Shown here piece after piece: positions 3,336 through 31,941 of a stretch of 33,254 bases of DNA. Made by a program: the position numbers and the translations under genes. The stretch is from a virus. Positions within the stretch are counted from its first letter, which is position 1. The number at the start of each line of letters is the position of its first letter. The notes below the pieces were generated by a model, which was not told the origin of the DNA, ran no database searches, and saw only the letters and a list, made by a program, of their open reading frames with translations. The stretch covers positions 1-33,254 of IMG/VR virus record IMGVR_UViG_3300032322_000760, one strand, 5' to 3'.

Positions 3336-3583
3336 AATTTTTATACGAAGCCGTAATAAAAGAGGGCGGAGATGGTTCTGCCCTATGGGTTTGCAAAGCC
3401 TATAAATTGGAACAGGTATTCGATGAAATATTTTTGTTTAACATAATAAATCATACAGGGTGGAATTTAAAATTAGAAGAAAACTGCCTTGTTTGGGGCG
3501 AAAATCAGGAATCTGTTACTATTTTCTTTTCAGATATTGAATACGCTTGTTCTGAATTTTACGAAATAAAAGTTTTCTACTAA
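3323..3583 (+). CDS. Small acidic protein of unknown function
   Basis: 86 residues, acidic, with several aromatic residues and a mix of short beta and helix; no membrane segment. The ATG overlaps the previous stop (ATGA) and its TAA overlaps the ATG of the glycosyltransferase by one base. Its first 12 bases are the same as those of the next gene (both begin MKIL), part of a 14-bp direct repeat. That pattern suggests it was added between two genes that were once adjacent. I do not recognise the family. Confidence 0.6.
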   Translation: MKILEFLYEAVIKEGGDGSALWVCKAYKLEQVFDEIFLFNIINHTGWNLKLEENCLVWGENQESVTIFFSDIEYACSEFYEIKVFY

Positions 3584-3595
3584 TGAAAATACTCG
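3582..3595 (+). repeat. 14-bp direct repeat at a start codon, right copy
   Basis: Identical to 3322-3335; it spans the start of the glycosyltransferase gene at 3583. Confidence 0.75.
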
Positions 3596-4578
3596 GGCTA
3601 TCAGATAGAGTAAGTGGGTGCGGTTATCATCGTGTTTGGAATCCATTAGCATACATACCCGGAACGAGGTATATTACTAACGACATACAAGAGGGTGTAC
3701 TGGAGCAAGGATGGGATATAATTCTATTCAATCGGATTGCAGGAATAGACCACGACCTTGAAAACGTCAGGAATATTACAGGTGCAAAGATAGTTGTTGA
3801 TTTAGACGATGATTGGGTGCTGCCGCCTGCTCATTTGAATTACGAACTTTATGTTGAACTTCGTGAGCGAATAGAAAACAATATCCGGAATGCTGATTTA
3901 GTAACCGTAACACATGAAAGGTTAGCGGATAGATGCTTTCAGTTTAACAGGAATGTAGAGGTAATCCCAAACGCTATACAGTTTGGCGAAGATCAGTACA
4001 CGGAAGAAAGAATTGAATCGGATAGCTTTAGACTATTCTGGGCAGGCGGTATAAGTCATGTAAACGATATGGAAATACTTAGGTACCCAATGAAACGAAT
4101 ATCAAGCCTGAAAGGGATAAGCACAGTAATTGGAGGCTATGCTTATTCCAATGAAGTAACCAAGCAATGCTGGGATAGGATGGTAAGTTCTTTTACTTGT
4201 TCGCTTAAGATACCCGGATTAGTCCTACCTTCGTTACCGGTAACGGAATACATGAATCACTTCAACCATGCTGATTGCTTACTACTACCGTTGGAAGATA
4301 GTAAGTGGCACACGATGAAGTCGAATTTAAAGTTGTTGGAAGCGGCAGCGAAAAAGATACCTGTAATCTGTTCAAAGGTCAATCCGTATTTAGATTTCGA
4401 TCCGCCTGTTTTTTATGTAAAACGTCAGGGCGATTGGTTCAAGTATGTAAATCTAATATTGAATGATAGAAATGCAGCGACAGAAATGGGCAATAGATTA
4501 TACGAATGGGCACAACAGTTTTCAATGAAAGAAGTAAATGAGTACAGACTTAAATGTTTTCAATCACTTATAAATTAA
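3583..4578 (+). CDS. GT-B fold glycosyltransferase (GT4-like)
   Basis: 331 residues, predicted to move a sugar from a nucleotide sugar to an acceptor. GT-B features in order: N-terminal Rossmann half beginning MKILGLSDRVSGCGYHR, an acidic strand VVDLDDDW (71-78), the usual crossover phrase ADLVTVTHERLADR (104-117), VEVIPNAI (125-132), the start of the second half FWAGGISHVNDMEIL, and the sugar-nucleotide-binding end KLLEAAAKKIPVIC (250-263, E253 at the expected place). No signal peptide or membrane anchor, so cytoplasmic. It opens a set with a GT9-like protein and an FkbM-like methyltransferase. The acceptor cannot be told: virion protein, host glycan or DNA are possible. Confidence 0.8.
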   Translation: MKILGLSDRVSGCGYHRVWNPLAYIPGTRYITNDIQEGVLEQGWDIILFNRIAGIDHDLENVRNITGAKIVVDLDDDWVLPPAHLNYELYVELRERIENNIRNADLVTVTHERLADRCFQFNRNVEVIPNAIQFGEDQYTEERIESDSFRLFWAGGISHVNDMEILRYPMKRISSLKGISTVIGGYAYSNEVTKQCWDRMVSSFTCSLKIPGLVLPSLPVTEYMNHFNHADCLLLPLEDSKWHTMKSNLKLLEAAAKKIPVICSKVNPYLDFDPPVFYVKRQGDWFKYVNLILNDRNAATEMGNRLYEWAQQFSMKEVNEYRLKCFQSLIN

Positions 4579-4583
4579 AAAAA

Positions 4584-4862
4584 ATGAATTACTTATTAAA
4601 ATCAATCGTTGAGCAATACAACGAAAAAGCAGAAAAAGTTAAAGAACTTGAATTAAAATTAAGCAAGTACGAAAAAAAAGAAGTTAAAAAAGTGAATTAT
4701 TCAATTACAGGAATGGCTTTTACGGATAGTTATTCCGTAAAACATTTATCTGAAACCTTAGATAGGCAAATTGAATCAATGAAAGAAAAGTATATTTCCT
4801 TAGCGGAAAAAAGCATTAATCTCATTGATAAATTGTATAATGATAATTGTGATGATTGCTAA
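4584..4862 (+). CDS. Coiled-coil protein of unknown function
   Basis: 92 residues from the ATG at 4584, which follows an A-rich leader; an in-frame ATG at 4554 inside the previous gene is less likely. A long lysine/glutamate-rich helix (about 10-42) is followed by a short break and a second helical stretch (about 55-85). The end is acidic with two cysteines. The stop overlaps the next ATG by one base. No family recognised; the coiled coil suggests an oligomer or scaffold role. Confidence 0.5.
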   Translation: MNYLLKSIVEQYNEKAEKVKELELKLSKYEKKEVKKVNYSITGMAFTDSYSVKHLSETLDRQIESMKEKYISLAEKSINLIDKLYNDNCDDC

Positions 4863-5101
4863 TGACACCAGCCGATATTGAAGTCATAGAAAGATATTAC
4901 CCGGAATGGGAGCTATTCAAGAAGTGCGGGGAGTTGATAAAGATACCACCCCATGCGGCTGATGAACTGTTAAGGGTGTACAGGGAAAAGGTAGACAAGT
5001 ATTATCACTACAACAAACGGTGTGCGGAATGCTTTAAAGATTTTTTTAAATTAGTATACACATGGTACGATTCACACACGGAGGGGCAACAGGCGATATA
5101 A
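4862..5101 (+). CDS. Small cysteine-containing protein of unknown function
   Basis: 79 residues from the ATG at 4862, which overlaps the previous stop; two codons further upstream an alternative ATG (4856) exists. Helical, with the pair CAEC at about 54-57 and aromatic residues after it (FKDFFKLVYTWYD). A second cysteine near residue 23 could help bind metal, but there is no full zinc motif. It overlaps the next gene by 40 bases in another frame. Similar small proteins occur near the sugar genes of Bacteroidota phages as far as I can judge; function unknown. Confidence 0.5.
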   Translation: MTPADIEVIERYYPEWELFKKCGELIKIPPHAADELLRVYREKVDKYYHYNKRCAECFKDFFKLVYTWYDSHTEGQQAI

Positions 5102-5742
5102 TCTTTTCACTACCCACCATCAAAGCGATGGGCGGCGGTGAGTTGTACATCACCAAGTACGATGAGCAGCGAGCCAACTCAATAGCGGAGCTTATCCGTC
5201 TGCAGCCGTACATTACAAAGGTGGAAGTAGTTGACACGCCACCGAAAGACTGCATCAACCTAAACAAATTTCGGGATCACGCCGGGCATCATCACAATTT
5301 GGTAGAGGCGCACTTCAAAGGCCAAGGCATTCCGGTTGAAAGATGGCAGGACGGATGGTTAAAGTCAATGCCTGCACCTGCTTATTTCCAAATTGCTCAA
5401 TATTGCGTTATCAACCGAACAACTAATTACGCTGATCCAAATTTCAACTGGGCAAAAGAAGTCGATTACTTGTTCACCCTTGCACCGGATGTAATCTTTA
5501 TCGGATACGAATCGGAATACAATACATTTCAGGAACTATTTAACCGCCCGATGGTTAGGTTCATTCCCTGTTCATTTTTAGAAGCTGCTTACCTGATACA
5601 CAATGCCAAGATGTTCACAGGGTGTTATTCGGCCATGAGTACGATAGCAATGGGATTGGGAATAAACTACAGGTTAGAGCAAGCACCCGGTCATACCTGT
5701 TCATCATTAAACGAACCAAGAGAAACCATCATCAATGTATAG
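5062..5742 (+). CDS. GT9-like (heptosyltransferase-type) glycosyltransferase
   Basis: 226 residues. It starts with RFTHGGATGDIIFSLPTIKA, the N-terminal nucleotide-fold signature of GT9 and related enzymes (G-x-GD-x-x-x-x-P). Near the end, AAYLIHNAKMFTGCYSAMST then AMGLG recalls the FVGpdSGxxHlA region of this family, with cysteine and tyrosine replacing typical residues. At 226 residues it is shorter than bacterial heptosyltransferases (about 320-350), so either a compact phage version or a divergent relative. Cytoplasmic. It sits between the GT4-like gene and the FkbM-like gene, so joint work on one glycan is likely. Confidence 0.6.
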   Translation: MVRFTHGGATGDIIFSLPTIKAMGGGELYITKYDEQRANSIAELIRLQPYITKVEVVDTPPKDCINLNKFRDHAGHHHNLVEAHFKGQGIPVERWQDGWLKSMPAPAYFQIAQYCVINRTTNYADPNFNWAKEVDYLFTLAPDVIFIGYESEYNTFQELFNRPMVRFIPCSFLEAAYLIHNAKMFTGCYSAMSTIAMGLGINYRLEQAPGHTCSSLNEPRETIINV

Positions 5743-6238
5743 CCAAGCCGGACAAGACGAATGGGTGTTAAGCCACATCAAACAGGGCTACTATGTAGAA
5801 ATCGGAGCGAGCCACCCGATAAACATTTCCAATACATACCTGCTTGAGCAAAACGGATGGGATGGAATAAGCATTGACATAGATAACCAATGCGAAGAAA
5901 TTTGGCATCAAACCAGAAAGAACCGTTTAATCATCGGCAATGCTTTAACTACTTCATTTGATTGGCTACCGAAACGAGTGGAATACTTATCACTTGACAT
6001 TGACCCGGCAAGGAATACATTTGAGATGCTTACCAAGTTGCCACATAAGACAACACGCTTTTCCCTGATTACTTATGAACATGATTACTATCTTTGCAAC
6101 GAATGGGCTGGTCATGACTTCCGGGAGCGGTCAAGGCAAATGCTTACTAACTTAGGCTATCAACTTGTAAAGGCTGATGTATGTTATGACGGTAAGCCTT
6201 ACGAGGATTGGTGGATTGATAAAACAGTACATATTTAA
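5735..6238 (+). CDS. FkbM-like methyltransferase
   Basis: 167 residues. The opening SQAGQDEWVL, then GYYVEIGASHPINISNTYLL and GWDGISIDID, is the FkbM pattern: an SAM-binding glycine strand (VEIGA) followed by an acidic residue at the end of the second strand (D49 or D51). Later, VEYLSLDID and SLITYEHD give the third and fourth strands. FkbM-type enzymes often methylate sugars or small metabolites. It is short for the family (typically 200 or more). It overlaps the previous gene by 8 bases and ends the sugar set just ahead of the packaging genes. Confidence 0.75.
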   Translation: MYSQAGQDEWVLSHIKQGYYVEIGASHPINISNTYLLEQNGWDGISIDIDNQCEEIWHQTRKNRLIIGNALTTSFDWLPKRVEYLSLDIDPARNTFEMLTKLPHKTTRFSLITYEHDYYLCNEWAGHDFRERSRQMLTNLGYQLVKADVCYDGKPYEDWWIDKTVHI

Positions 6239-6240
6239 AC

Positions 6241-6705
6241 GTGGGAATTCATAAATACATACCGACACCTGAAACAATGTGGCAACACTTTACGGCTTAC
6301 CGAGATACCGTAAAGGAAAAGCCAATAAAGGTTAAGGATTGGGTAGGCAAGGATGCAGACCAAGTAATGAGGGAAAAGGAAAGACCTTTGACTATGGAAG
6401 GCTTTGAAAACTACTGCTTTGAGAATAATATAATTGATTCGATTGATCAATACTTTGCTAATTATGAGGGCAGGTACGCCGATTTTGTGGGTATCTGTTC
6501 GCGCATAAGAAAAGTAATCAGACAAGACCAGATCGAAGGCGGCATGGCAGGAATTTACAGCACTTCTATCACCCAACGGCTTAACGGGCTTACTGAAAAC
6601 AGTAATGTAAAGACAGATGGAACACTAAACGTAAACTATGGACGTATACCTCAACGACCTGCATCCGAATCAGGTCAGGATGATACGGGAGCGGAAACGG
6701 TTTAA
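6241..6705 (+). CDS. Terminase small subunit
   Basis: 154 residues starting at a GTG two bases after the previous stop. The order of elements matches Bacteroidota phage small terminases: YIPTPETMWQHFTAYRDTVK, a basic loop, PLTMEGFENYC, then a region with FVGICSRIRKVIRQDQIEGG and a C-terminal disordered tail. The subunit recognises the packaging site and recruits the large subunit. The last 68 bases overlap the large subunit gene in another frame, a tight coupling that supports the pairing. Confidence 0.8.
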   Translation: MGIHKYIPTPETMWQHFTAYRDTVKEKPIKVKDWVGKDADQVMREKERPLTMEGFENYCFENNIIDSIDQYFANYEGRYADFVGICSRIRKVIRQDQIEGGMAGIYSTSITQRLNGLTENSNVKTDGTLNVNYGRIPQRPASESGQDDTGAETV

Positions 6706-7798
6706 CGTTGCGAATTGCGGCAGGAGATTCGGCAAATCGGCAATGGCGGTAAACATACTTTCCGAAACGGCAATAAAGGGCTTCCCTTCCGGTTACTTCG
6801 CGCCAACATACAAACTACTTGAAGGCACTTACAACGAGTGCCTACTGGCTTTAAATGAGGCTGTAGTAAGAAAACACGATAACCAATTCATTGAACTAAT
6901 CACAGGCGGCAAGATTGAATTCTGGTCATTAGACAACCCACAAGCAGGACGTTCACGAAAGTATAAGGAGGTGGTAGTGGATGAAGCTGCATTTGTTAAG
7001 AACTTATGGGAGGCATGGACACAAGCCATCAGGCCTACGCTTACTGATTTAAAGGGTGGCGCATGGTTTCTTTCAACCCCGAAAGGAAAGAATGATTTTT
7101 ACAAGCTGCATCAGCGGGGCGTAACCGGTGAATCCAACTGGCAGTCATGGACAATGAGTACATATGATAACCCATTCATTGACCCGACAGAGGTAGACGA
7201 TGCTAAGCGGGATTTGCCGGAAGTTGCTTTTAATCAGGAGTACTTAGCACAGTTTGCAGATAATACGGCTAATCCGTTTGGGCTGAACTTCATTCAGCAA
7301 TGTACCTATCCGCTGTCTAACTTACCACCTGTTTGCTTTGGGATTGATTTAGCGAAGTCATACGACTGGACTGTAATAATCGGGCTGGACGTAAACGGTT
7401 CTGTTTGTTGGTTTGACAGGTTTCAAAGGGATTGGAAAAGCACTATCACGCACATAAACAATTTACCTGTAGTTCCGATCTCAATAGACACTACAGGCGT
7501 TGGCGACCCTGTAGCGGAAATGGTTGATAGGCGTTACTACTTGGATATGTTTAAGTTTTCAAACACAAGTAAGCAGCAGTTGATGGAGATGTTAGCAATA
7601 GCCATTCAGCAAAGAAAGATAAATTTTCCTGCTGGCATTATTGCCGATGAACTTTCAAACTTTGAATATGAATACACAAAGAACGGCGTGAAGTATTCAG
7701 CACCAACAGGGTTGCACGATGATTCCGTGTGCGCTTTGGCATTGGCTTGGCGCATCTTTAAGTCAGGGGCTGCAAACGGTCATTACACAATTATCTAA
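6638..7798 (+). CDS. terL: Terminase large subunit
   Basis: 386 residues; drives DNA into the prohead and cuts concatemers. ATPase motifs: Walker A GRRFGKS (28-34), Walker B VVVDEA with D115 and E116, and a coupling motif STPKG (146-150). RNase H-like nuclease motifs: D237 in GIDLAKSYDWT, D284 in ISIDTTG, and D361-D362 in GLHDDS. All core residues are present, so the enzyme should be active. It is somewhat shorter than typical (400-550), lacking a long C-terminal tail. The gene starts inside the small subunit gene. Confidence 0.93.
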   Translation: MDVYLNDLHPNQVRMIRERKRFNVANCGRRFGKSAMAVNILSETAIKGFPSGYFAPTYKLLEGTYNECLLALNEAVVRKHDNQFIELITGGKIEFWSLDNPQAGRSRKYKEVVVDEAAFVKNLWEAWTQAIRPTLTDLKGGAWFLSTPKGKNDFYKLHQRGVTGESNWQSWTMSTYDNPFIDPTEVDDAKRDLPEVAFNQEYLAQFADNTANPFGLNFIQQCTYPLSNLPPVCFGIDLAKSYDWTVIIGLDVNGSVCWFDRFQRDWKSTITHINNLPVVPISIDTTGVGDPVAEMVDRRYYLDMFKFSNTSKQQLMEMLAIAIQQRKINFPAGIIADELSNFEYEYTKNGVKYSAPTGLHDDSVCALALAWRIFKSGAANGHYTII

Positions 7799-7815: not shown

Positions 7816-8436
7816 ATGAACATTGAGCAATTTCAGCAACTGAACATCATTAATGAGTTCGATTTGAACGAAATAGACAAGGCAACCCAGATGGTTATGG
7901 TCCTAACCGGGAAGACGGAGGACGAGGTAGACAAGATGAGCATTAAGAAGTTCAGCAAGTTATGTGAAAGAATAAACAAGTCCTTTGATTTTCAAGGGAA
8001 GAAGATACCTAAGTACTTTGTCTTGGGCTTTAGGCTTTACAAGATTGAACTGAACATTAAGAAAATGAAAGCGGGCAAGTACGTGGAAGGGATTGAATTT
8101 GGCAAGAACCACATTGAGAACCTGCACAAGATGATGGCATCGGCTGTAATTCCTTGTAATTGGTTAGGCAGGGAAAAGCCAATAGACGGAACAGAGCATG
8201 AGGATTTGGCTGAAAAGATGCTGAAATGCAACTTTAAAGTTGCTTTTTCTTGTTGTGTTTTTTTTTGCAAATTATTCACAGCCTCAATGAAAAGTTCCCA
8301 TCACTATTTGAAAATGACCCTGATGAGCAAGGGGATGAGCAAAGAACAAGCAGAGGAGCAGCTGAAAGGTTTGCATCAAGTTTTGGCTGGAATAGTTGCA
8401 GCGAACAGGTGGCAGAATACGAAAGAATTAAATTAG
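7816..8436 (+). CDS. Tail assembly chaperone, short form (G-like)
   Basis: 206 residues, soluble, helical and basic. The order (an early TQMVMVLTGKTEDEVDKM segment, then HKMMASAVIPCNW, then SCCVFFCKLF, then MSKGMSKEQAEEQ) resembles the tail chaperone family of Bacteroidota phages. These proteins coat the tape measure during tail assembly. The gene is followed by an ORF in the -1 frame that lacks an ATG, as for lambda G and GT. At 8259-8265 it contains a slippery heptamer in the right phase. The frame remains open for 171 bases after that site. Confidence 0.7.
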   Translation: MNIEQFQQLNIINEFDLNEIDKATQMVMVLTGKTEDEVDKMSIKKFSKLCERINKSFDFQGKKIPKYFVLGFRLYKIELNIKKMKAGKYVEGIEFGKNHIENLHKMMASAVIPCNWLGREKPIDGTEHEDLAEKMLKCNFKVAFSCCVFFCKLFTASMKSSHHYLKMTLMSKGMSKEQAEEQLKGLHQVLAGIVAANRWQNTKELN

Positions 8437-8525
8437 ACGATGTTTGGGCGTTGCCTGTTATTCAGTTCTTAAACGATTTGGTTTATTTAAAAGAAAAAAA
8501 GAAATACCTCAATGCCAAAAAGTAA
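7816..8525 (+). CDS. Tail assembly chaperone, frameshifted long form (GT-like)
   Basis: A -1 shift on the U9 run at 8258-8266 joins 150 residues of the short form to 86 residues read from 8265 to the TAA at 8523-8525, giving about 236 residues. The downstream part has an acidic linker (FENDPDEQGDEQ), then FASSFGWNSC and DVWALPVIQFLNDLVYLKEK, a T-domain-like ending. No ATG exists in this frame between its upstream stop and its end (the only early alternatives are TTG at 8250 and 8253), so frameshift expression is the simplest reading. In lambda the long form recruits tail tube protein to the tape measure. Confidence 0.65.
8258..8266 (+). promoter_or_regulatory. Slippery site for programmed -1 frameshift
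   Basis: Nine T in a row. In the 7816 frame the codons are GTT TTT TTT TGC, so 8259-8265 forms T TTT TTT, a canonical X XXY YYZ heptamer in the right phase. Both tRNAs can re-pair fully after slipping. I could not pick out a clear downstream stem or pseudoknot by eye. Confidence 0.65.
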
Positions 8526-13332: not shown

Positions 13333-15069
13333 ATGGAAAAGACAACAGTAGCATTAGAATTTGAAGTAAGCAGTAAGGCAGCGGAATCATCCGTTGGTTC
13401 TTTTAAGAAACAGCTAAGGGATGCCAATCAGGAACTTCTAACGCTTAATGAAAAGTTTGGTGCAACATCAAAGGAAGCGATAGCGGCAGCAAAAAAAGTA
13501 GCAAATTTAAAAGATGCTATTGGCGATGCCAAACAGTTGAGTGAAGCATTTAACCCCGATGCGAAGTTCAACGCTCTTGCAGGTGCGGTAACTGGTGCAG
13601 TAAGTGGATTTCAGGCACTGCAGGGCGCACAGGCATTGTTTGGAACGGAGAGTAAAGAACTTGAAGAAACTTTAGTGAAGTTAAATTCCGTGATGGCTTT
13701 AAGTCAAGGGCTTAACGGAATACTTGCTGCTAAGGATGCGTTTATTGCTTTGGGAGCGCAGATAAAAAACAGCACTGTATTTATCAAGGCAAATGAATTA
13801 GCGACTAAGGCAGCAGCTATTGTGATGAAGTTGTTTGGTCAGGGAGTAGAAACGACATCAACATCATTCAAAGTTTTAAAGGGAGCGATAGCGGCTACAG
13901 GAATTGGTTTACTTGTTGTACTTATCGGGGAGGCCGTGCAAGCATTTCAGGAGTTTACAAGTGCTGCTGATAAGGCAGCGGAATCACAAAAGAAGTTTAA
14001 CGACTTAACTTTAAAAAATGCGGAGGATGAGTTAAAAAGAATCAACACAAGATTAGACAGGGAAGAGAAGTTTGCAATAGCGAGGGCGAAACTTGCAGGA
14101 GCGAGTGAAGAAGAGATATTCCAAATTGAGCAGGAGTACAGAAGAAAGAAACTCGAGGCACAGAATAATTTTATTAGGCAGGCTTATTCATTAGATGAAG
14201 ACAGGGGCGATGAGGCTGTAGCGCAAGCAAAGAAGATAAACGAAGAAGGGCAGTTAGCGGAACTGAATAATCAGTTAAAGCTAAAACAGATTAGAGATAA
14301 AGCTGCTATTGATGCAGCTAATGAAGCGGATAGAGTTGCAAAAGAAAGAGCAAAAAAACAGCAAGAGCAATACGAAAAAGAATTAAAGGCGTTTCAGGAT
14401 TTACAAGAAGCCAAAAAAGCAATATCAAAACAAGCTAACGAAGCAGATGATTTAGCTTTAGAAAATGCACAAAAGCAATTCGATGCAATAGCGGAGCAAG
14501 AAGAAGAAGCTGCAAGAAAATCAGCAGAAAATAAAATATACTGGGAGCAGTTCTATGCTGATTTAAAATTAAAATCCGATGCGGAATTATTAAAGGCTGA
14601 ACAAGATGCAGCAGCGCAAAGAGTTGCCAACCTTCAATCAGTTGCAGATTCGACTAATAAACTTGCAGACGTTGTTGGAAGGCAAACAGCAGCAGGAAAG
14701 GTATTAGCAAGCGCAACAGCACTAATAAATACTTATCAAGGAGCAACCGAAGTGATAAGGGCAAAGAGTACGTTACCTGAACCTTTTGGAACGATAAGCA
14801 AAATAGCTAACGTGGCGGCAATTATTGCCACAGGATTGAGAGCGGTAAAGTCTATAAACTCCGTGCGAGTACCGGGCAGCGGTGGCGGTGGTTCGGTTGC
14901 CGCTCCTTCGCTTGGCAATTTCTCCCCACAAGCCACAACAACAAACTTGAACCAACAATCCATCAACGCCATCGGGAACGTGGCTGCAAGGGCTTATGTA
15001 TTGGAAACAGACGTAAGCGGTAATCAGGAAAGAATCAGACGTTTGAACAGGGCAGCACGTATTAATTAA
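13333..15069 (+). CDS. Tape measure protein
   Basis: 578 residues, rich in A, K, E and Q, almost all helix. It sets tail length and may help DNA cross the inner membrane. A coiled-coil start (about 15-70) leads to a small-residue helical part, one membrane-like segment (about 186-203, GAIAATGIGLLVVLIGE), then a long charged coiled coil (about 205-440). The end holds a glycine run and the phrase YVLETDVSGNQERIRRLNRA, a typical tape-measure C-terminus in Bacteroidota phages. By the usual 0.15 nm per residue rule the tail would be roughly 85-90 nm, an inference only. Confidence 0.85.
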   Translation: MEKTTVALEFEVSSKAAESSVGSFKKQLRDANQELLTLNEKFGATSKEAIAAAKKVANLKDAIGDAKQLSEAFNPDAKFNALAGAVTGAVSGFQALQGAQALFGTESKELEETLVKLNSVMALSQGLNGILAAKDAFIALGAQIKNSTVFIKANELATKAAAIVMKLFGQGVETTSTSFKVLKGAIAATGIGLLVVLIGEAVQAFQEFTSAADKAAESQKKFNDLTLKNAEDELKRINTRLDREEKFAIARAKLAGASEEEIFQIEQEYRRKKLEAQNNFIRQAYSLDEDRGDEAVAQAKKINEEGQLAELNNQLKLKQIRDKAAIDAANEADRVAKERAKKQQEQYEKELKAFQDLQEAKKAISKQANEADDLALENAQKQFDAIAEQEEEAARKSAENKIYWEQFYADLKLKSDAELLKAEQDAAAQRVANLQSVADSTNKLADVVGRQTAAGKVLASATALINTYQGATEVIRAKSTLPEPFGTISKIANVAAIIATGLRAVKSINSVRVPGSGGGGSVAAPSLGNFSPQATTTNLNQQSINAIGNVAARAYVLETDVSGNQERIRRLNRAARIN

Positions 15070-15070
15070 G

Positions 15071-15096
15071 TTACATTTTGGATTTTGAAGTATAAT
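15071..15096 (+). promoter_or_regulatory. Leader motif TTACAT-N14-TATAAT, copy 1
   Basis: TTACAT at 15071-15076 and TATAAT at 15091-15096, 14 nt apart, six bases before the protease ATG. The same pair with the same spacing occurs before the scaffold gene (15680-15705). It may be a translation leader or a special promoter; so close to the ATG it would give a nearly leaderless message. Confidence 0.35.
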
Positions 15097-15102
15097 TAGT
15101 TT

Positions 15103-15675
15103 ATGGATTTTCCTGTCTATAAACTAAAGATAAACCCCAACATTGAGGGGGCGAGCGAGGTTACAGCCGTTGCGCTTGTTGACTTACCGGCTATACAAGA
15201 AGACTTTCAGTTCTTCAATCTTCACAAACAGAAATACAAAATCGAAAACGAGGATCAGAGAATAGTATCCGGGCCCTTGATGATAGCGGACAAGCCTATC
15301 TACAGGGAAAACGATGAGTTTGGAAGCCATTACATTGTATTCGATGCGGACACGATAAAGACAATCGCCATCAAGTACGCAAAGAAAAAGTACCAATCGA
15401 ATGTAAACGAGATGCACGAAACTCCACTACAGGGAATAGTTTTATTTGAAAGTTTTATCAGCGACACAAAGCGAGGCATAAAGCCGATGGTAGGTTATGA
15501 GGATGCGCCTGATGGAAGTTGGTTCGGTTCAATGTACATTGAGAATGACCAGGTTTGGCAAGATGTTAAGGAGGGAAAGTTTAAAGGTTTCAGCGTGGAA
15601 GGTTTGTTTATTTACGATGTTCCGAAAAAAACTGATGAAGAAATTCTGAACAGTTTAAAAAAGTTATTGAGCTAA
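15103..15675 (+). CDS. Prohead protease, XkdF-like
   Basis: 190 residues. It matures the prohead by cutting scaffold and capsid proteins. The sequence has the XkdF-family order: an early strand with VALVDLPAI, then VSGPLMIADKPIYR, H105 in NEMHE, a strand LFESFIS, the phrase GSWFGSMYIENDQVW (about 138-152), and GKFKGFSVEG with S164 as the likely nucleophile. The His and Ser pair matches the herpesvirus-type serine protease fold. Its place before a scaffold and the major capsid gene is as expected. Confidence 0.8.
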   Translation: MDFPVYKLKINPNIEGASEVTAVALVDLPAIQEDFQFFNLHKQKYKIENEDQRIVSGPLMIADKPIYRENDEFGSHYIVFDADTIKTIAIKYAKKKYQSNVNEMHETPLQGIVLFESFISDTKRGIKPMVGYEDAPDGSWFGSMYIENDQVWQDVKEGKFKGFSVEGLFIYDVPKKTDEEILNSLKKLLS

Positions 15676-15679
15676 AAAG

Positions 15680-15705
15680 TTACAATTAAATTATAAATGT
15701 ATAAT
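15680..15705 (+). promoter_or_regulatory. Leader motif TTACAA-N14-TATAAT, copy 2
   Basis: TTACAA at 15680-15685 and TATAAT at 15700-15705, again 14 nt apart and eight bases before the scaffold ATG. Flanking bases AAGTTACA also resemble copy 1 (TAAGTTACA). Confidence 0.35.
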
Positions 15706-15713
15706 TGATAAGT

Positions 15714-16415
15714 ATGGAAAGAAATGCAAGCGAAATATTAAAGCAGGTTAAAGAATTCTTTAACACACTTGTAAACCCTGCACCAGCTGCTCCTGTAGTT
15801 CCTGCTGCTGCACCAGTAGCACCAGTTACAATGAGTACAGATTACACGTTAAACGATGGCGTTACGATGGTAAGCATTGACAAACTTGAAGCAGGTGGAG
15901 TAGTGAAAATTAAGGACGTTAGCGGTGCGGAAGTTGCAGCACCGGCAGGCGAGCATACTTTACAGGACGGAACGGTATTGGTAGTTGCAGAGGGTGGGAT
16001 AATTTCAGAAGTAAAGCCTGTAGCCCCTGTAGCCCCTGCACCAATGAGCATTCAGCAGATGGAGGAGTTTTCTAAGATGCAGTTCGCTGCAACTATTGAA
16101 GACAGGTTGGCAGCTTTGGAAAAGATGAACAAAGCATTGATGCAAAATTGCATGGGTTATGAACTTGCAAAAGCGGCGCAAGCGGATGCAGTAGAAGCAT
16201 ATCGCACAAGCATCGAAGGTGTTCAGGTTGAAATGAAAGCGCACAAAGAAACATCGAACAAAGTATTAGGCGGTGTTATTGAAGTTGTTGAAGCGTTATC
16301 AGCACAACCAACAGCAGCACCTGATCCGACTGTAGAAAAAAAGAATCATTTTAAAGCGGATGTTAAGCAGCCGTCTGAAACAATAAAAAACATTACTAAA
16401 ATCTTGTTTTCCTAA
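15714..16415 (+). CDS. Capsid scaffold-type protein
   Basis: 233 residues from the ATG at 15714 (a TTG three codons upstream is in frame but poor). The N-terminal helix is followed by an alanine/proline-rich linker, then a beta-type domain (about 43-105) with two echoing phrases, YTLNDGVTMV and HTLQDGTVLV, another Pro/Ala linker with a PVAPVAPAP run, and a long helical C-terminus (about 112-190). Scaffold proteins of Bacteroidota phages located between protease and capsid have this helical, linker-rich layout. The coil suggests dimers. Function is inferred from place and build. Confidence 0.6.
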   Translation: MERNASEILKQVKEFFNTLVNPAPAAPVVPAAAPVAPVTMSTDYTLNDGVTMVSIDKLEAGGVVKIKDVSGAEVAAPAGEHTLQDGTVLVVAEGGIISEVKPVAPVAPAPMSIQQMEEFSKMQFAATIEDRLAALEKMNKALMQNCMGYELAKAAQADAVEAYRTSIEGVQVEMKAHKETSNKVLGGVIEVVEALSAQPTAAPDPTVEKKNHFKADVKQPSETIKNITKILFS

Positions 16416-16427
16416 AATAAACTAACT

Positions 16428-17390
16428 ATGGCATTTACATTATCAGGCATCGGAGCGTACACACGGCAATCGGTAGAACCTTTATTGACAGCGGCTATCT
16501 TCGGTGCAAAGACACAGGAACTTATCGCTAAGAGCGGTATCGTTTTAACAAAGGTAAAGAGTGCGGAAGCAATTCCTCTTATGGATACCGATGCACCTTT
16601 TCAGACAGATGCTTGCGGATGGAACCCATCAGGTACAACTACCTATTCACAGCGTACCGTTACCGTTGGTAAAATCAAAGTAGAGGAAGCCCTTTGTTAT
16701 AAGACATTGGAAACTTCATTCATTCAGGAAGCAATGAGGGCAGGTTCTACCTATGAATCATTTGAGCCAGCAGCATGGGAAGCAGCATGGACTAACCGTA
16801 AGAACGAGCGCATTGCAAACCAACTGGAAACAGCATTATGGCAGGGCGATACGGCCTCCGGAAATATGAACCTTAACAAGTTCGATGGACTTATCAAATT
16901 GATTGATGCAGGTTCACCGGTTGATGGAAACGTAAACTCTTATACAGGCGTTGGCGTAATCACAGGACTTACATCATCTAACATTATCGCTGCTGTACGT
17001 GCCGTAAAGAACGCTATCCCAGCGCCTTTGAAAGGAAGAACAGATACTGTTATCTTCTGTGGATATGATGCTTATGACTTGTATGTAGATGCAGGCGTAA
17101 CGGCAAATCTTTTCTCTTACAACTTCAACGACAAATCTAACTACGGTGGGCTTACTGTACCGGGTACAGGCATCCGTATAGAAGCTGTACACGGCTTGAA
17201 CGGAACAGGCGATATGTATGCGATGAGGTTATCTAACGTTGCAATTGCGGTTGATGCCGAAGGTGAAGAAGCTAATTACAAGCTGTGGTATTCCGAAGAC
17301 AACAACGAAGGTCGTTTCCGTGCAGCCTTTAAAATGGGTGTAAACGTAGCGTTTACAACCGAAGTAGTGAAGTTTAAATCAACAATCTAA
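16428..17390 (+). CDS. Major capsid protein (HK97-fold type)
   Basis: 320 residues, of even composition, with a helical N-terminal arm followed by alternating strands and helices. Features typical for Bacteroidota major capsids: a VEEALCYKTLETSFIQEAM spine-like helix region, WTNRKNERIANQLETALWQGD, a loop NLNKFDGLIKLIDAG, and TVIFCGYDAYDLYVDAG near the A-domain. It ends with a strand VAFTTEVVKFKSTI. The gene stands after protease and scaffold and before a terminator, matching a highly expressed virion gene. No delta-domain is obvious at the N-terminus, in keeping with a separate scaffold. Confidence 0.8.
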   Translation: MAFTLSGIGAYTRQSVEPLLTAAIFGAKTQELIAKSGIVLTKVKSAEAIPLMDTDAPFQTDACGWNPSGTTTYSQRTVTVGKIKVEEALCYKTLETSFIQEAMRAGSTYESFEPAAWEAAWTNRKNERIANQLETALWQGDTASGNMNLNKFDGLIKLIDAGSPVDGNVNSYTGVGVITGLTSSNIIAAVRAVKNAIPAPLKGRTDTVIFCGYDAYDLYVDAGVTANLFSYNFNDKSNYGGLTVPGTGIRIEAVHGLNGTGDMYAMRLSNVAIAVDAEGEEANYKLWYSEDNNEGRFRAAFKMGVNVAFTTEVVKFKSTI

Positions 17391-17392
17391 TT

Positions 17393-17914
17393 ATGCCTAA
17401 TTGTTCAATAAGTTCAGGTTATGCCATTGACTGCCGGGATGGGGTAGGCGGTAACAAAGAGGTTTACATTATCGACTTCTACGATGTTACTGCCGTTGCC
17501 GAAGCAAGCGGATTGGTTACCGGCATCACTAAAGCATCTGGAAAAAGATTTTACAAATTTGAGATACCAGAAGCTACAGCCGAAGGAAAAGACACGCCTG
17601 TAGGTAACACACAAAACGGATCACTATTCTTCAACCATGAATTTACAATGGCTTTGAATAAGAGAGATGCTGCAACAAGAAATATAATTCTTGTGCTTGG
17701 TAAAGCGAGGGTTATCATTGTAGCAAGGGAGTTATCAGGCAGGTGGACAATGTACGGCAAGGACAACGGCTTATGGCTAACAACCGGTGAAGGTACATCA
17801 GGAATTGCAGGAGGAGATAGGAATGGCTATAATCTTACATTCGCAGGAGAGCAAAGAGAGCCAGTTCTTGAAGTAACAAATGCGGTGGGATTGGCTTTAC
17901 AGACACCCGGATAA
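17393..17914 (+). CDS. Tail tube-like structural protein
   Basis: 173 residues, beta-rich. The opening has CSISSGYAIDCRDGVGGNKE, then strands around VYIIDFYDV; the second half has FTMALNKRDAATRNIILVL then KARVIIVARELSGRWTMYG and DRNGYNLTFAGEQREP. This order is typical for proteins of Bacteroidota phages that I would match with tail tube or tube-like folds. It starts three bases after the capsid stop, so it is made with the capsid, and a terminator follows. Alternative: a head decoration protein. Confidence 0.5.
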   Translation: MPNCSISSGYAIDCRDGVGGNKEVYIIDFYDVTAVAEASGLVTGITKASGKRFYKFEIPEATAEGKDTPVGNTQNGSLFFNHEFTMALNKRDAATRNIILVLGKARVIIVARELSGRWTMYGKDNGLWLTTGEGTSGIAGGDRNGYNLTFAGEQREPVLEVTNAVGLALQTPG

Positions 17915-17935
17915 TATTTAAAACAAAAACCTAAA

Positions 17936-17966
17936 GAGGGGTGGGGATTTCCCTCACCCTTTTTTT
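17936..17966 (+). terminator. Rho-independent terminator after the capsid genes
   Basis: A G-rich arm (GGGGTGGGG, 17938-17946), a short ATTT turn and a C-rich arm (CCCTCACCC, 17951-17959) pair with one wobble, followed by seven T (17960-17966). The next gene starts at the very next base, so it needs either read-through or its own start of transcription. Confidence 0.8.
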
Positions 17967-18320
17967 ATGCTACAAATAAATAAACATATTACCAATACGT
18001 TACTATTCACAGCAACGGAAAGTTGTGTTCTTACAAATCCGTATTTTCTTTTTAAATTTACAAACAGAACAACAAATGAAATAATTTATTATGTTGCTAC
18101 TGATACAAGCCTCTACAATTACAGATTCAACAAAGCCACAATATCGGGTTCATTATTCTCACAATACGGATATTATAATTACGAAATTTACGAGCAGTTA
18201 AGTTCAACGAATATAGACCCTGCAGGATTAAATTTAGTGGAGAGCGGTTTCATGGTTGTTGTTGGCGATTCATTCACGCCTGATGAATACGATGGTCAGG
18301 ATAATACATTTGTAGTATGA
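17967..18320 (+). CDS. Small structural protein of unknown function
   Basis: 117 residues, beta-rich and tyrosine-rich, no signal peptide. It begins right after the U-run of the terminator and its stop overlaps the portal start (ATGA at 18317-18320). The run NPYFLFKFTNRTTNEIIYYV is typical for a small protein I have seen beside portal genes of Bacteroidota phages, but no role is known to me. Place suggests head or neck. Confidence 0.55.
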   Translation: MLQINKHITNTLLFTATESCVLTNPYFLFKFTNRTTNEIIYYVATDTSLYNYRFNKATISGSLFSQYGYYNYEIYEQLSSTNIDPAGLNLVESGFMVVVGDSFTPDEYDGQDNTFVV

Positions 18321-20413
18321 TAGATTACAATCTTATACAGGTATCATTTGCGAGGGCTGAACAGCCTGTGTTTACTGAACGTAAAGGCAGCGGCATTGTA
18401 AACTTTGGTGAAAAGAATACCTTCCCTACTTACTTAAACGATTTGTATAATGAAAGCCCTAAACACGGGGCTATTGTGCAAAGCAAAGCGACTTACATAT
18501 TCGGAAATGGATTTGCAAAAATAAAAGATTATAAAAATCCAAATGATTCAGAAACGTGGAACGACTTGTTAAGAAAATGCGTTTTGGATTATGAGAAGTT
18601 TTACGGTTATTACTTACAAATAATTTGGAACAAGGGCGGAACGATAGCAAGCATCTATCATTTGAAGTATCATAAGGTTAGAACAAATTATGACAATTCT
18701 ACTTTCTGGGTGAAAGATGAGTGGGATATTTACAAGCAGATTTCTGCTAAGGATAAATTAAAGGAAAGAGATTATCCTGCATTTGATGTGAACGATAGGA
18801 AAGGTTCACAGGTTCTTTTTGTTAAGAGTATCGGCGATCAGTCAGACGTTTATCCTTTGCCGTCTTATTATCAGGCTTTGAATTATATTGATGCTGATAG
18901 GCTAATGGGCAGGCACGTGCTGGGTATGGCTAAGGATGGGTTTGTAGCCAGTAAGCTAATAAACTTTAATGAAGGCGAGCCATCTTTAGAGCAGAAAAGA
19001 GAAATTGAGAAAGCGTTAGAAAAGAAATTTACAGGCAGCGAGGGAAAGAAGTTCATGGTTGCATTTAACAAGAACCCGGCAAATGCAGTAACGGTAACGG
19101 ATTTAGGTACTTCGCAGCTTACAAAAGAAGATTTTACTAATATCAATTTATTAATTCAACAAGAGATTTTTGCAAGTCATAAGATAACAAGCCCATCACT
19201 TTTTGGAATTAAAACAGAGGGGCAGTTAGGTGGAAGAAGTGAACTTAGAGATGCTTATGAGATATTTAAGAACACGTATGTAAACGAAAGGCAGCAGATA
19301 CACGAAGAAGTATTTAGCGGATTATTTTTGCTTTCAGGCATCCCAGTAGAAGCAAAGATAATTCCTACAGAACCGATAGGGATTGAATTAACTTCTGAAA
19401 TAATCACAGGGCTTGGGCTTCCAAAAAAATACTTCCTCGATAAATTAGGCGTGAATATAGAAGACTATCCTGCAACGGTAGATGATAGTGTTATCATAAA
19501 TGCGATAAATTCCTTAAGTCCGTTAGTGGCTAACAAGGTTCTGGAAAGCATGGATCCAAACGAGATAAGAGGGCTTGTAAAGTTACCTGCTAAATTGGGA
19601 GGAACTACAGGTGCTGCTCCGCTTGATGCAAACGGCAATGTGGTAACTGAAATGGTGAACGATAATCTTAAAAATTTAACAGGTAGGCAGTTTCAAAACA
19701 TAACCAGGATAGTGCGCCAGTACGGTTCAGGCAAGATAACAAGGCAAATGGCGGTGGCTTCTTTGCGTTCAGGATTTGGATTAAGCGAGCAGGATATTAC
19801 AGACTTTTTAGGCGAGGAATTACAATTTAGCGAAGATGTATTACATCACTTTGCCGAACATGGCGAGGATAGGAGTAACTTTATTTTACTTCGCCAGTAC
19901 GACTTGGATTCAGAAGCAATATTACCGTCAGCTTTTGCCGAAGTGAATAAATTAGGATTGGACGTGTTGGGGGTTATTTCAAAAAACAAAAACGCAACAC
20001 CGGAAGAAATTGCAAAGACGGTAGGCAAAGATGTTGATGTTATTAATTCCGTTCTTTCTGATTTATTGACAAAGGAACTGATAACGGAATCCAACGGAGT
20101 TAGAAAACTTACAAAGCCGTTGAGTGAAATTGCGGATACTAAAATACAAGTTTTAATAAGGTATTCGTACGAATGGAAAAGCGAAGTACCTTTTGGCCAA
20201 AGAGATACAGCGGCACATCCTTCAAGAGAATTTTGTAAGAAGTTGATGAAGCTGAATAGATTTTACAGCAGGAAAGACATTCAGGATATTTCATTAAGGC
20301 TTGGTTATTCTGTATTCGATAGAGCAGGTGGATGGTGGACAATGCCTAACGGTGAACATTCAGTTTCCTGCAGACATGAGTGGAAGCCTAACGTAGTTCT
20401 AAAAAAATTATAA
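18317..20413 (+). CDS. Portal protein with long C-terminal extension
   Basis: 698 residues, longer than most portals (400-550). The first 380 residues show portal features: FTERKGSGIVNFGEKNTFPTYL at the start, a run HGAIVQSKATYIFGNGF, the wing with YYLQIIWNKGG, the stem-like FVASKLINF, and the clip with ITSPSLFGIKTEGQLGG. After about 440 comes an extension: a helical part, a winged-helix-like stretch (about 555-605, ATPEEIAKTVGKDVDVINSV), and a final 60 residues with HPSREFCKKLMKL and WWTMPNGEHSVSCRHEWKP, reminiscent of MuF-like head morphogenesis domains. The portal forms the ring through which DNA enters. Confidence 0.8.
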   Translation: MIDYNLIQVSFARAEQPVFTERKGSGIVNFGEKNTFPTYLNDLYNESPKHGAIVQSKATYIFGNGFAKIKDYKNPNDSETWNDLLRKCVLDYEKFYGYYLQIIWNKGGTIASIYHLKYHKVRTNYDNSTFWVKDEWDIYKQISAKDKLKERDYPAFDVNDRKGSQVLFVKSIGDQSDVYPLPSYYQALNYIDADRLMGRHVLGMAKDGFVASKLINFNEGEPSLEQKREIEKALEKKFTGSEGKKFMVAFNKNPANAVTVTDLGTSQLTKEDFTNINLLIQQEIFASHKITSPSLFGIKTEGQLGGRSELRDAYEIFKNTYVNERQQIHEEVFSGLFLLSGIPVEAKIIPTEPIGIELTSEIITGLGLPKKYFLDKLGVNIEDYPATVDDSVIINAINSLSPLVANKVLESMDPNEIRGLVKLPAKLGGTTGAAPLDANGNVVTEMVNDNLKNLTGRQFQNITRIVRQYGSGKITRQMAVASLRSGFGLSEQDITDFLGEELQFSEDVLHHFAEHGEDRSNFILLRQYDLDSEAILPSAFAEVNKLGLDVLGVISKNKNATPEEIAKTVGKDVDVINSVLSDLLTKELITESNGVRKLTKPLSEIADTKIQVLIRYSYEWKSEVPFGQRDTAAHPSREFCKKLMKLNRFYSRKDIQDISLRLGYSVFDRAGGWWTMPNGEHSVSCRHEWKPNVVLKKL

Positions 20414-31395: not shown

Positions 31396-31419
31396 AAAAT
31401 GCTGTCATGACAGCATTTT
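31396..31419 (+). promoter_or_regulatory. Perfect 24-bp palindrome, candidate operator or terminator
   Basis: Core GCTGTCATGACAGC (31401-31414) flanked by AAAAT and ATTTT, perfectly symmetric about 31407/31408. It lies between the HTH_39-like gene and the Ala/Trp-repeat gene and overlaps the stop of the latter. A stem with no loop and AT ends suits a dimeric repressor; flanking T on both sides would also allow a two-way terminator. Confidence 0.65.
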
Positions 31420-31941
31420 TATAAGTTGTTTAATTTGCGCATCCCATGCAGCCCATGCAGCCCTTGCAGCCCATGCAGCCCATGCAGCCCATGCAGCACT
31501 TGCAGCAGCCCATGCAGCACTTGCAGCAGCCCATGCAGCACTTGCAGCAGCCCATGCAGCCCCTGCAGCCCATGCATCCCCTGCAGCCCCTGCAGCCCCT
31601 GCAGCCCTTGCAGCCCATGCAGCATCCCTTGCATCAGCAAGTTCTTCATCTGTTGCTTCACCGTTAGCGTATCTTTCCGCAACATTGCAAGCATCTATAC
31701 TTCTTGAATCAGGTTTTTTAATCAGCTTCAATGCCTCCCTTGCACACCATACAGCAAACAAACGTAACGTCCTTGCATCAATAAACTGTTCTCTAAGCAC
31801 TACCCACAACCTATCTTCAGCCGGGCATTTCTCCACGTTTAAAATATCCAATACCGTGCCTGTCCAGTCTTCTGGTAAGAACTTCGCAGGGTCGTAACAG
31901 GGTTCTAAATCCCTGATTTCTTGGAGTGTGATTTTTTTCAT
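31405..31941 (-). CDS. Ala/Trp-repeat phage protein
   Basis: 178 residues. The first 100 are a normal domain ([17 protein letters not shown], then [20 protein letters not shown] and [14 protein letters not shown]), which I recognise as a recurrent phage protein with varied alanine-rich tails. Residues 106-167 consist of A and W with a few G, S, R and D, with three exact copies of AAWAAAS (128-148), probably a long amphipathic helix. The end ([12 protein letters not shown]) is ordinary. Function unknown. In DNA the repeat is a 9-bp and 21-bp array, likely to vary in length. Five more ORFs on both strands across it are by-products of the repeat. Confidence 0.7.
31438..31629 (+). repeat. 9-bp/21-bp DNA tandem array
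   Basis: Units of CCATGCAGC (and CCTTGCAGC or CCCTGCAGC variants) in register over 190 bp, with three 21-bp units CCATGCAGCACTTGCAGC plus CAG at about 31498-31560. Most units keep the reading frame of the minus-strand gene (AAW per 9 bp, AAWAAAS per 21 bp). Confidence 0.85.

Follow-up and report, generated by a model that had tools for sequence, protein, structure and literature searches.

The recoded locus and its slip site

The window, by which we mean the entire 33,254-nucleotide stretch of viral DNA that was analysed, has a G+C content of 39% and carries, between the terminase and position 8512, a gene that is read in two overlapping frames (Table 1). The 0-frame ORF is made up of an N-terminal domain of 150 codons, common to both predicted products and running to the end of TTT TTT, and a C-terminal tail of 56 codons. 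Around the T run the codons of the 7816 frame read GTT (8257) TTT TTT TGC, that is G TT TTT TTT T, and the X_XXY_YYZ heptamer T_TTT_TTT is found in phase with the 0 frame, confirming what the initial annotation had read from the same bases. It had also stated that the downstream −1 frame is without an ATG and that no stop interrupts either frame for 171 nt past the heptamer. Both statements hold on translation of the window, where the −1 frame contains zero Met codons and ends at a stop at 8523-8525.

Read across the slip site, the window gene would give a fused product of 236 aa (...CVFF-LQIIHSLNEK...) with the predicted junction peptide ...VFFLQIIHSLNEK, and VFFCK and MTLMSK would be peptides of the 0-frame product. 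The tape-measure-like gene is ~4.9 kb and four ORFs downstream of the recoded gene and is therefore not adjacent to it. The portal (18317) and capsid-like (16428) genes come after the tail-like genes (13333-20413), an order unlike that of lambda, and the portal ORF extends into a long C-terminal part whose winged-helix matches are weak. Elsewhere in the window, ORFs at 3583-6238, directly before the packaging genes, give the impression from their translations of glycosyltransferases and a methyltransferase, and an ORF at 31405-31941 on the minus strand has an Ala/Trp-rich repeat in its C-terminal half, with open frames overlapping on both strands.

Table 1. Features of the recoded locus, its surroundings in the window and the relatives fused in a single frame.
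Feature	Position	Strand	Basis or remark
Terminase genes	starts 6241 and 6638		upstream of the recoded gene
Terminase large subunit	6638..7798	+	phrog_2, E 1.2e-41; directly upstream; anchor for the search for relatives
0-frame ORF, 206 aa	7816..8436	+	ORF list; homologues in 45 non-redundant loci
T9 slip run	8258..8266	+	window sequence; heptamer T_TTT_TTT at 8259-8265
−1-frame extension, 86 aa (LQIIHSLNEK...YLNAKK)	8265..8525	+	ORF translation; single-frame fused relatives
Dual-frame coding stretch	8266..8433	+	synonymous constraint in 65 pairs, ending at the 0-frame stop
0-frame stop TAG	8434..8436	+	window sequence; 171 nt past the heptamer
Tape-measure-like gene	13333..15069	+	phrog_3336, E 1.5e-5; context
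In-frame fused group 1			L041/L045/L049/L066
In-frame fused group 2			L114/L116/L117/L118/L144
In-frame fused group 3			L251

A run of exactly nine Ts among relatives

Close relatives alone offered too few differences, so the terminase was taken as anchor. Scanning IMG/VR with this anchor yielded 79 loci, most of which contain the same two overlapping ORFs and the in-phase heptamer, with both frames open for 111-189 nt beyond it. The set was widened by genome searches and by further scans, which took the best 80 of 250, the best 80 of 261 and the best 80 of 567 relatives. We found that the run is exactly nine Ts long, and in the same codon phase, in 276/276 frameshift-type loci examined, the first part of which was chosen by requiring T9 or longer (L053 and L055 dropped out by this choice) and the remainder by requiring T7 or longer. 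Among the loci chosen by the T7-or-longer criterion, where such lengths were detectable, there are no T7, T8 or T10 runs. Many of the 276 loci are one contig fetched repeatedly; hence we also quote distinct windows, of which there are 174, and protein clusters, of which there are 28 at 70% identity and 14 at 50%.

The T9 set includes a Chitinophaga cymbidii chromosome, where the gene is in a prophage, two further genomes from a search of its family, and the cultured Nonlabens phage P12024S. The latter was reached via a fold search, a search of named phages by sequence having given no usable match to the chaperone-like protein. Phocaeicola BV57P2 and Parabacteroides PM93P1 have a different gene after the terminase and no in-phase site, and no convincing slip site was found in Flavobacterium phage 6H. 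In an alignment of 41 representatives, 34 nucleotide columns are invariant; ten of these codon positions belong to the T run, one T being read twice in the fused frame. The only invariant third codon positions among these representatives are those of the T run and of one Trp codon.

Relatives without the T9 run

In three groups of relatives (Table 1) a T run is missing from the site and a single reading frame covers the complete fusion, and on the strength of this comparison we take the fused product to be real. Moreover, the junction is continuous in the fused alignment, FFL being matched by YFL, HFL, QCL and KFI in relatives. The tree places in-frame groups 1 and 2 within T9 lineages (supports 99/94 and 89/80), and on the simplest reading recoding has been lost at least twice. 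In this tree the L055 row is without the second part and its placement is not used; the group counts cover labelled rows, and it is the topology and the supports that are relied on. The in-frame relatives are without the 0-frame tail, an indication that the 0-frame product is not universally needed.

The initial annotation had named, as evidence against recoding, a relative with no slippery site and an ATG for the second ORF. No such relative appeared in this set: those lacking the site are fused in frame, and L055 and L174, a distant sister pair with an ATG in the second frame (upstream of the site in L055), retain an in-phase slippery heptamer at the corresponding position, A_AAT_TTT. One contig (L053, L101 and L219; L053 1502-2180), a relative of L021, is without the T9 stretch, and its first part continues into the 0-frame tail; the missing stretch may reflect deletion or misassembly. 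L235 is too short to judge.

Selection on both tails

Third codon positions of the −1 frame coincide with second positions of the 0 frame, and hence nearly every synonymous change in the −1 frame alters the 0-frame protein. Across 17 pairs, the upstream part shows third-position differences of 0.30; the figure falls to 0.14 in the overlap and returns to 0.26 beyond it, and the −1 first positions, which are 0-frame third positions, go up from 0.08 to 0.135. Classing each change by its effect in both frames gave a result that agrees with the position-based one; one of the pair comparisons covered pairs of equal length only.

The larger comparison used 65 independent pairs, drawn from the 276 loci by way of the 174 distinct windows and 168 usable ones. 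Synonymous change was observed at 1333/5697 (23.4%) upstream of the overlap, 235/3166 (7.4%) in the −1 frame within the overlap and 378/1817 (20.8%) after the overlap, and the overlap differs from its two flanks with Wilcoxon p values of 3e-11 and 5e-9. Its rate is lower than that of the upstream part in 63/65 pairs and lower than that of the downstream part in 56/65, the drop being absent in two and nine pairs, respectively. These rates back the suggestion of the initial annotation that one stretch codes for two useful C-termini.

We then placed the rates relative to the 0-frame stop in the 57/65 pairs that were kept once those with tails differing by more than 3 codons had been dropped. The rate is 3-8% until six codons before the stop, 15% over the final six codons and 27% over the six that follow. 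At codons 52-57 after the site, 41/116 are changed where the 0-frame stop is at or before codon 51, compared with 9/115 where it is at codons 62-68 (short versus long tails, p 3.5e-7). The boundary of the constraint thus shifts along with the 0-frame stop. A signal at the RNA level is not expected to track this stop, and the moving constraint therefore counts against one.

If the −1 codons are replaced at random by synonyms, 6% of draws for the window leave the 0 frame open over this length by chance; for the loci of a 45-locus set (composed without L053 and L055, which have no T9) the figure is 0.8-53%. One locus by itself does not lie far outside chance expectation. The comparative evidence for dual coding goes well beyond chance, and from these substitution patterns we conclude that both C-termini are under selection and that 8266-8433 is truly dual coding. 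In L103 and others the 0-frame tails extend to 82-84 codons, and almost the entire second domain would be dual coded.

Predicted structure and identity of the products

An AlphaFold model of the window's 0-frame product, built with 28 aligned sequences, has a mean pLDDT of 79.8. Its tail is modelled as helices at 140-171 and 176-199, with block means of 71, 79, 86 and 70, then 50 and 35 at the end. The model of the L049 in-frame fusion (pLDDT 88.3) has a disordered linker at 174-184 followed by a helical C-terminal domain. Matches in BFVD are mostly to uncharacterised phage proteins, including I6R9M9 of P12024S (E 6.1e-7), with a match to the chaperone of Arthrobacter phage Kitkat at E 0.03. 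A fold search of the PDB gave no convincing match (best Foldseek E 0.43 for the 0-frame model; none above Z 5.3 with VIA), a result that leaves room for kinship.

Profile searches returned a weak match to PF10109 Phage_TAC_7 in 1/50 members (E 0.0088), a weak match to phrog_166 'tail protein' in 6/28 (best 6.7e-4) and nothing relevant to the recoded gene among NCBIfam profiles. The initial annotation had spoken of tail chaperones; the layout and the −1 recoding fit that name, but the profile matches are weak and the tape measure is not adjacent, so that identity as a tail chaperone is weakly supported. By analogy, the gene may work like the lambda G/GT pair. We do not claim membership of that family because of the weak profile matches and the 4.9 kb that separate the gene from the tape-measure-like gene.

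A model of one gene with two products

With high confidence, and judging from sequence comparison, we read 7816-8525 as one recoded gene with two products, both tails of which are selected. Standard decoding of T9 would yield the 206-aa protein, its last 56 residues forming the helical 0-frame tail. A −1 displacement within T9, in the smaller share of events, would yield the 236-aa protein, which begins with the same 150 residues and continues through a flexible linker into a small helical domain (FGW...VAE.ERI.LD...LP..QFLNDL.YLK). As with lambda gpG/gpGT, the pair may serve as tail-assembly factors whose ratio has to be fixed.

Three other readings were weighed against this model of one recoded gene. 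If the −1 fusion alone were functional, the open 0-frame tail would be passive and the constraint would reflect an RNA-level signal. The in-frame relatives without a 0-frame tail are in keeping with this, as is the chance of an open 0 frame, often 5-30% per locus. However, the synonymous constraint runs only as far as the 0-frame stop and shifts when that stop does, no conserved RNA structure was found, and the 0-frame tail is modelled as helices with block pLDDT values mostly of 70-86; we consider this reading very improbable. That the second ORF is an independent gene, starting within the first ORF, is marginally less probable still. This is suggested by P12024S gp39, annotated from an ATG within the −1 frame, and by the L055 ATG upstream of the site, yet the −1 frame of the window has zero ATG codons and the continuous fusion of relatives aligns through the junction. 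Finally, a homopolymer error in sequencing or assembly could have hidden a single ORF with T10, since T10 would yield the fused ORF and some relatives are indeed single ORFs. Against such an error, to which we assign a negligible probability, T9 recurs in every frameshift-type locus examined, from many assemblies, bacterial chromosomes and the isolated phage P12024S, and in the single-ORF relatives no T run as long as this is present at the site.

Polymerase or ribosome

The initial annotation had proposed a programmed −1 frameshift. Recoding at the T run stands, and a ribosomal slip is one of two candidate mechanisms; nine Ts are also the length at which RNA polymerases classically slip, and no stimulatory structure was found. 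A downstream stimulatory structure is usual for ribosomal −1 frameshifting, though not obligatory. Among 35 representatives, in a test run without L101 and the in-frame L114, L116, L117, L118 and L144, a downstream structure was not detected (mean z +0.33; 1/35 below −2), nor was one upstream of the site (mean z +0.47 over representatives). The window itself has a hairpin at 8228-8243, 14 nt upstream of T9, that is not general among representatives. There is no enrichment (mean 6.3 codons versus 5.5) of early stops in the +1 frame, a possible mark of deletion slippage.

Nine A or T residues are a usual slippage-prone length in bacteria, as described in the available text of PMC5009743 and PMC1088944, and in a reporter the E. 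coli polymerase was found to insert at 5% on T7 and 10% on T8, with none detectable under seven Ts (available text of PMC6260861). In the ORFs of these phages (551 ORFs) one A9 run is observed versus 20.9 expected; the A-run comparison is used alone because the shuffled expectation for T runs is inflated by the ORFs of the site itself. The only other nine-base A or T run in the window, at 2406, is between the ORFs listed at 2342 and 2500, outside ORFs, which fits an avoidance of such runs in genes. The base preceding the T run is G or C in 28/28 clusters, yet A starts 78/149 of the non-T NTT codons upstream. Seven of the nine Ts would be needed under either mechanism. Of the other two, the first may be held by a requirement for V/L and the ninth by a conserved Leu, and we therefore treat the excess of T9 over T7 as suggestive only.

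The invariance of T9, the absence of RNA stimulators and the scarcity of other nine-base runs lead us to favour slightly RNA-polymerase slippage on T9, giving mRNA with U10, to which we give about an even chance. Classical ribosomal −1 frameshifting on U_UUU_UUU, which would leave the dual-coding outcome unchanged, we put a little short of even. It would explain the in-phase X_XXY_YYZ heptamer, would follow the custom of other tail genes (the available text of a review, PMC5009743, describes GT frameshifting as ribosomal) and could alone use the in-phase A_AAT_TTT of L055/L174. It would not account for the missing stimulatory structure, nor for two Ts beyond the heptamer and a preceding G or C that never vary. 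Returning to slippage by the polymerase, we tentatively propose, at odds somewhat lower again, that in a large set of Bacteroidota phages it is the RNA polymerase, slipping on an invariant T9, rather than ribosomal frameshifting that determines the ratio between two tail-assembly proteins, with an obligate dual-coding stretch evolved downstream. If this is true, slipped and unslipped messages would each give a working C-terminus.

Significance and comparison with known systems

Overlaps past recoding sites are commonly regarded as leftovers; here, hundreds of related sequences show that selection has retained two C-termini over the whole overlap. The phages that carry the T9 gene are abundant in metagenomes, and in the cultured phage P12024S the gene is called 'hypothetical'. 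It offers a clean natural system in which to ask what might lead some tail genes to recode through the polymerase and others through the ribosome, why T8 and T10 never arise, and what role is played by the unslipped tail, which three groups have discarded. No description of the T9 gene or of a selected dual-coding tail was found in the titles and opening abstract lines of the open-licence literature on tail-assembly frameshifting or slippage or on P12024S, and the available portions of PMC3711429, PMC8008677 and PMC10885494 do not mention the gene.

In P12024S (Inhavirus), gp38/gp39 resemble the window gene in following the terminase, in reading L-F-F-Y over T9 and in continuing in the −1 frame. 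The pair differs in being annotated as two hypothetical proteins and in having a 0-frame tail of 25 codons. Systems with transcriptional slippage on 9A/9T, such as Shigella mxiE/spa13, Thermus dnaX and IS elements, share with the present gene the run of nine, the alternative C-termini and the scarcity of other long runs, with slippage here only a candidate mechanism. No case of slippage in a gene of a phage structural module was found in the open-licence literature on tail assembly with slippage.

The closest parallel in layout is with lambda gpG/gpGT and P2 E/E', which, according to the available text of PMC5009743, likewise recode by −1 close to the end of the first of two overlapping ORFs and join a shared N-terminal part to an alternative, small C-terminal domain; in lambda, a G/GT ratio of 30:1 is needed in tail assembly (PMC5009743, same text). 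Unlike those pairs, the gene described here follows the terminase and is apart from the tape measure, sequence similarity is weak, the run is exactly T9, and a long 0-frame tail is, from its substitution pattern, under demonstrable selection.
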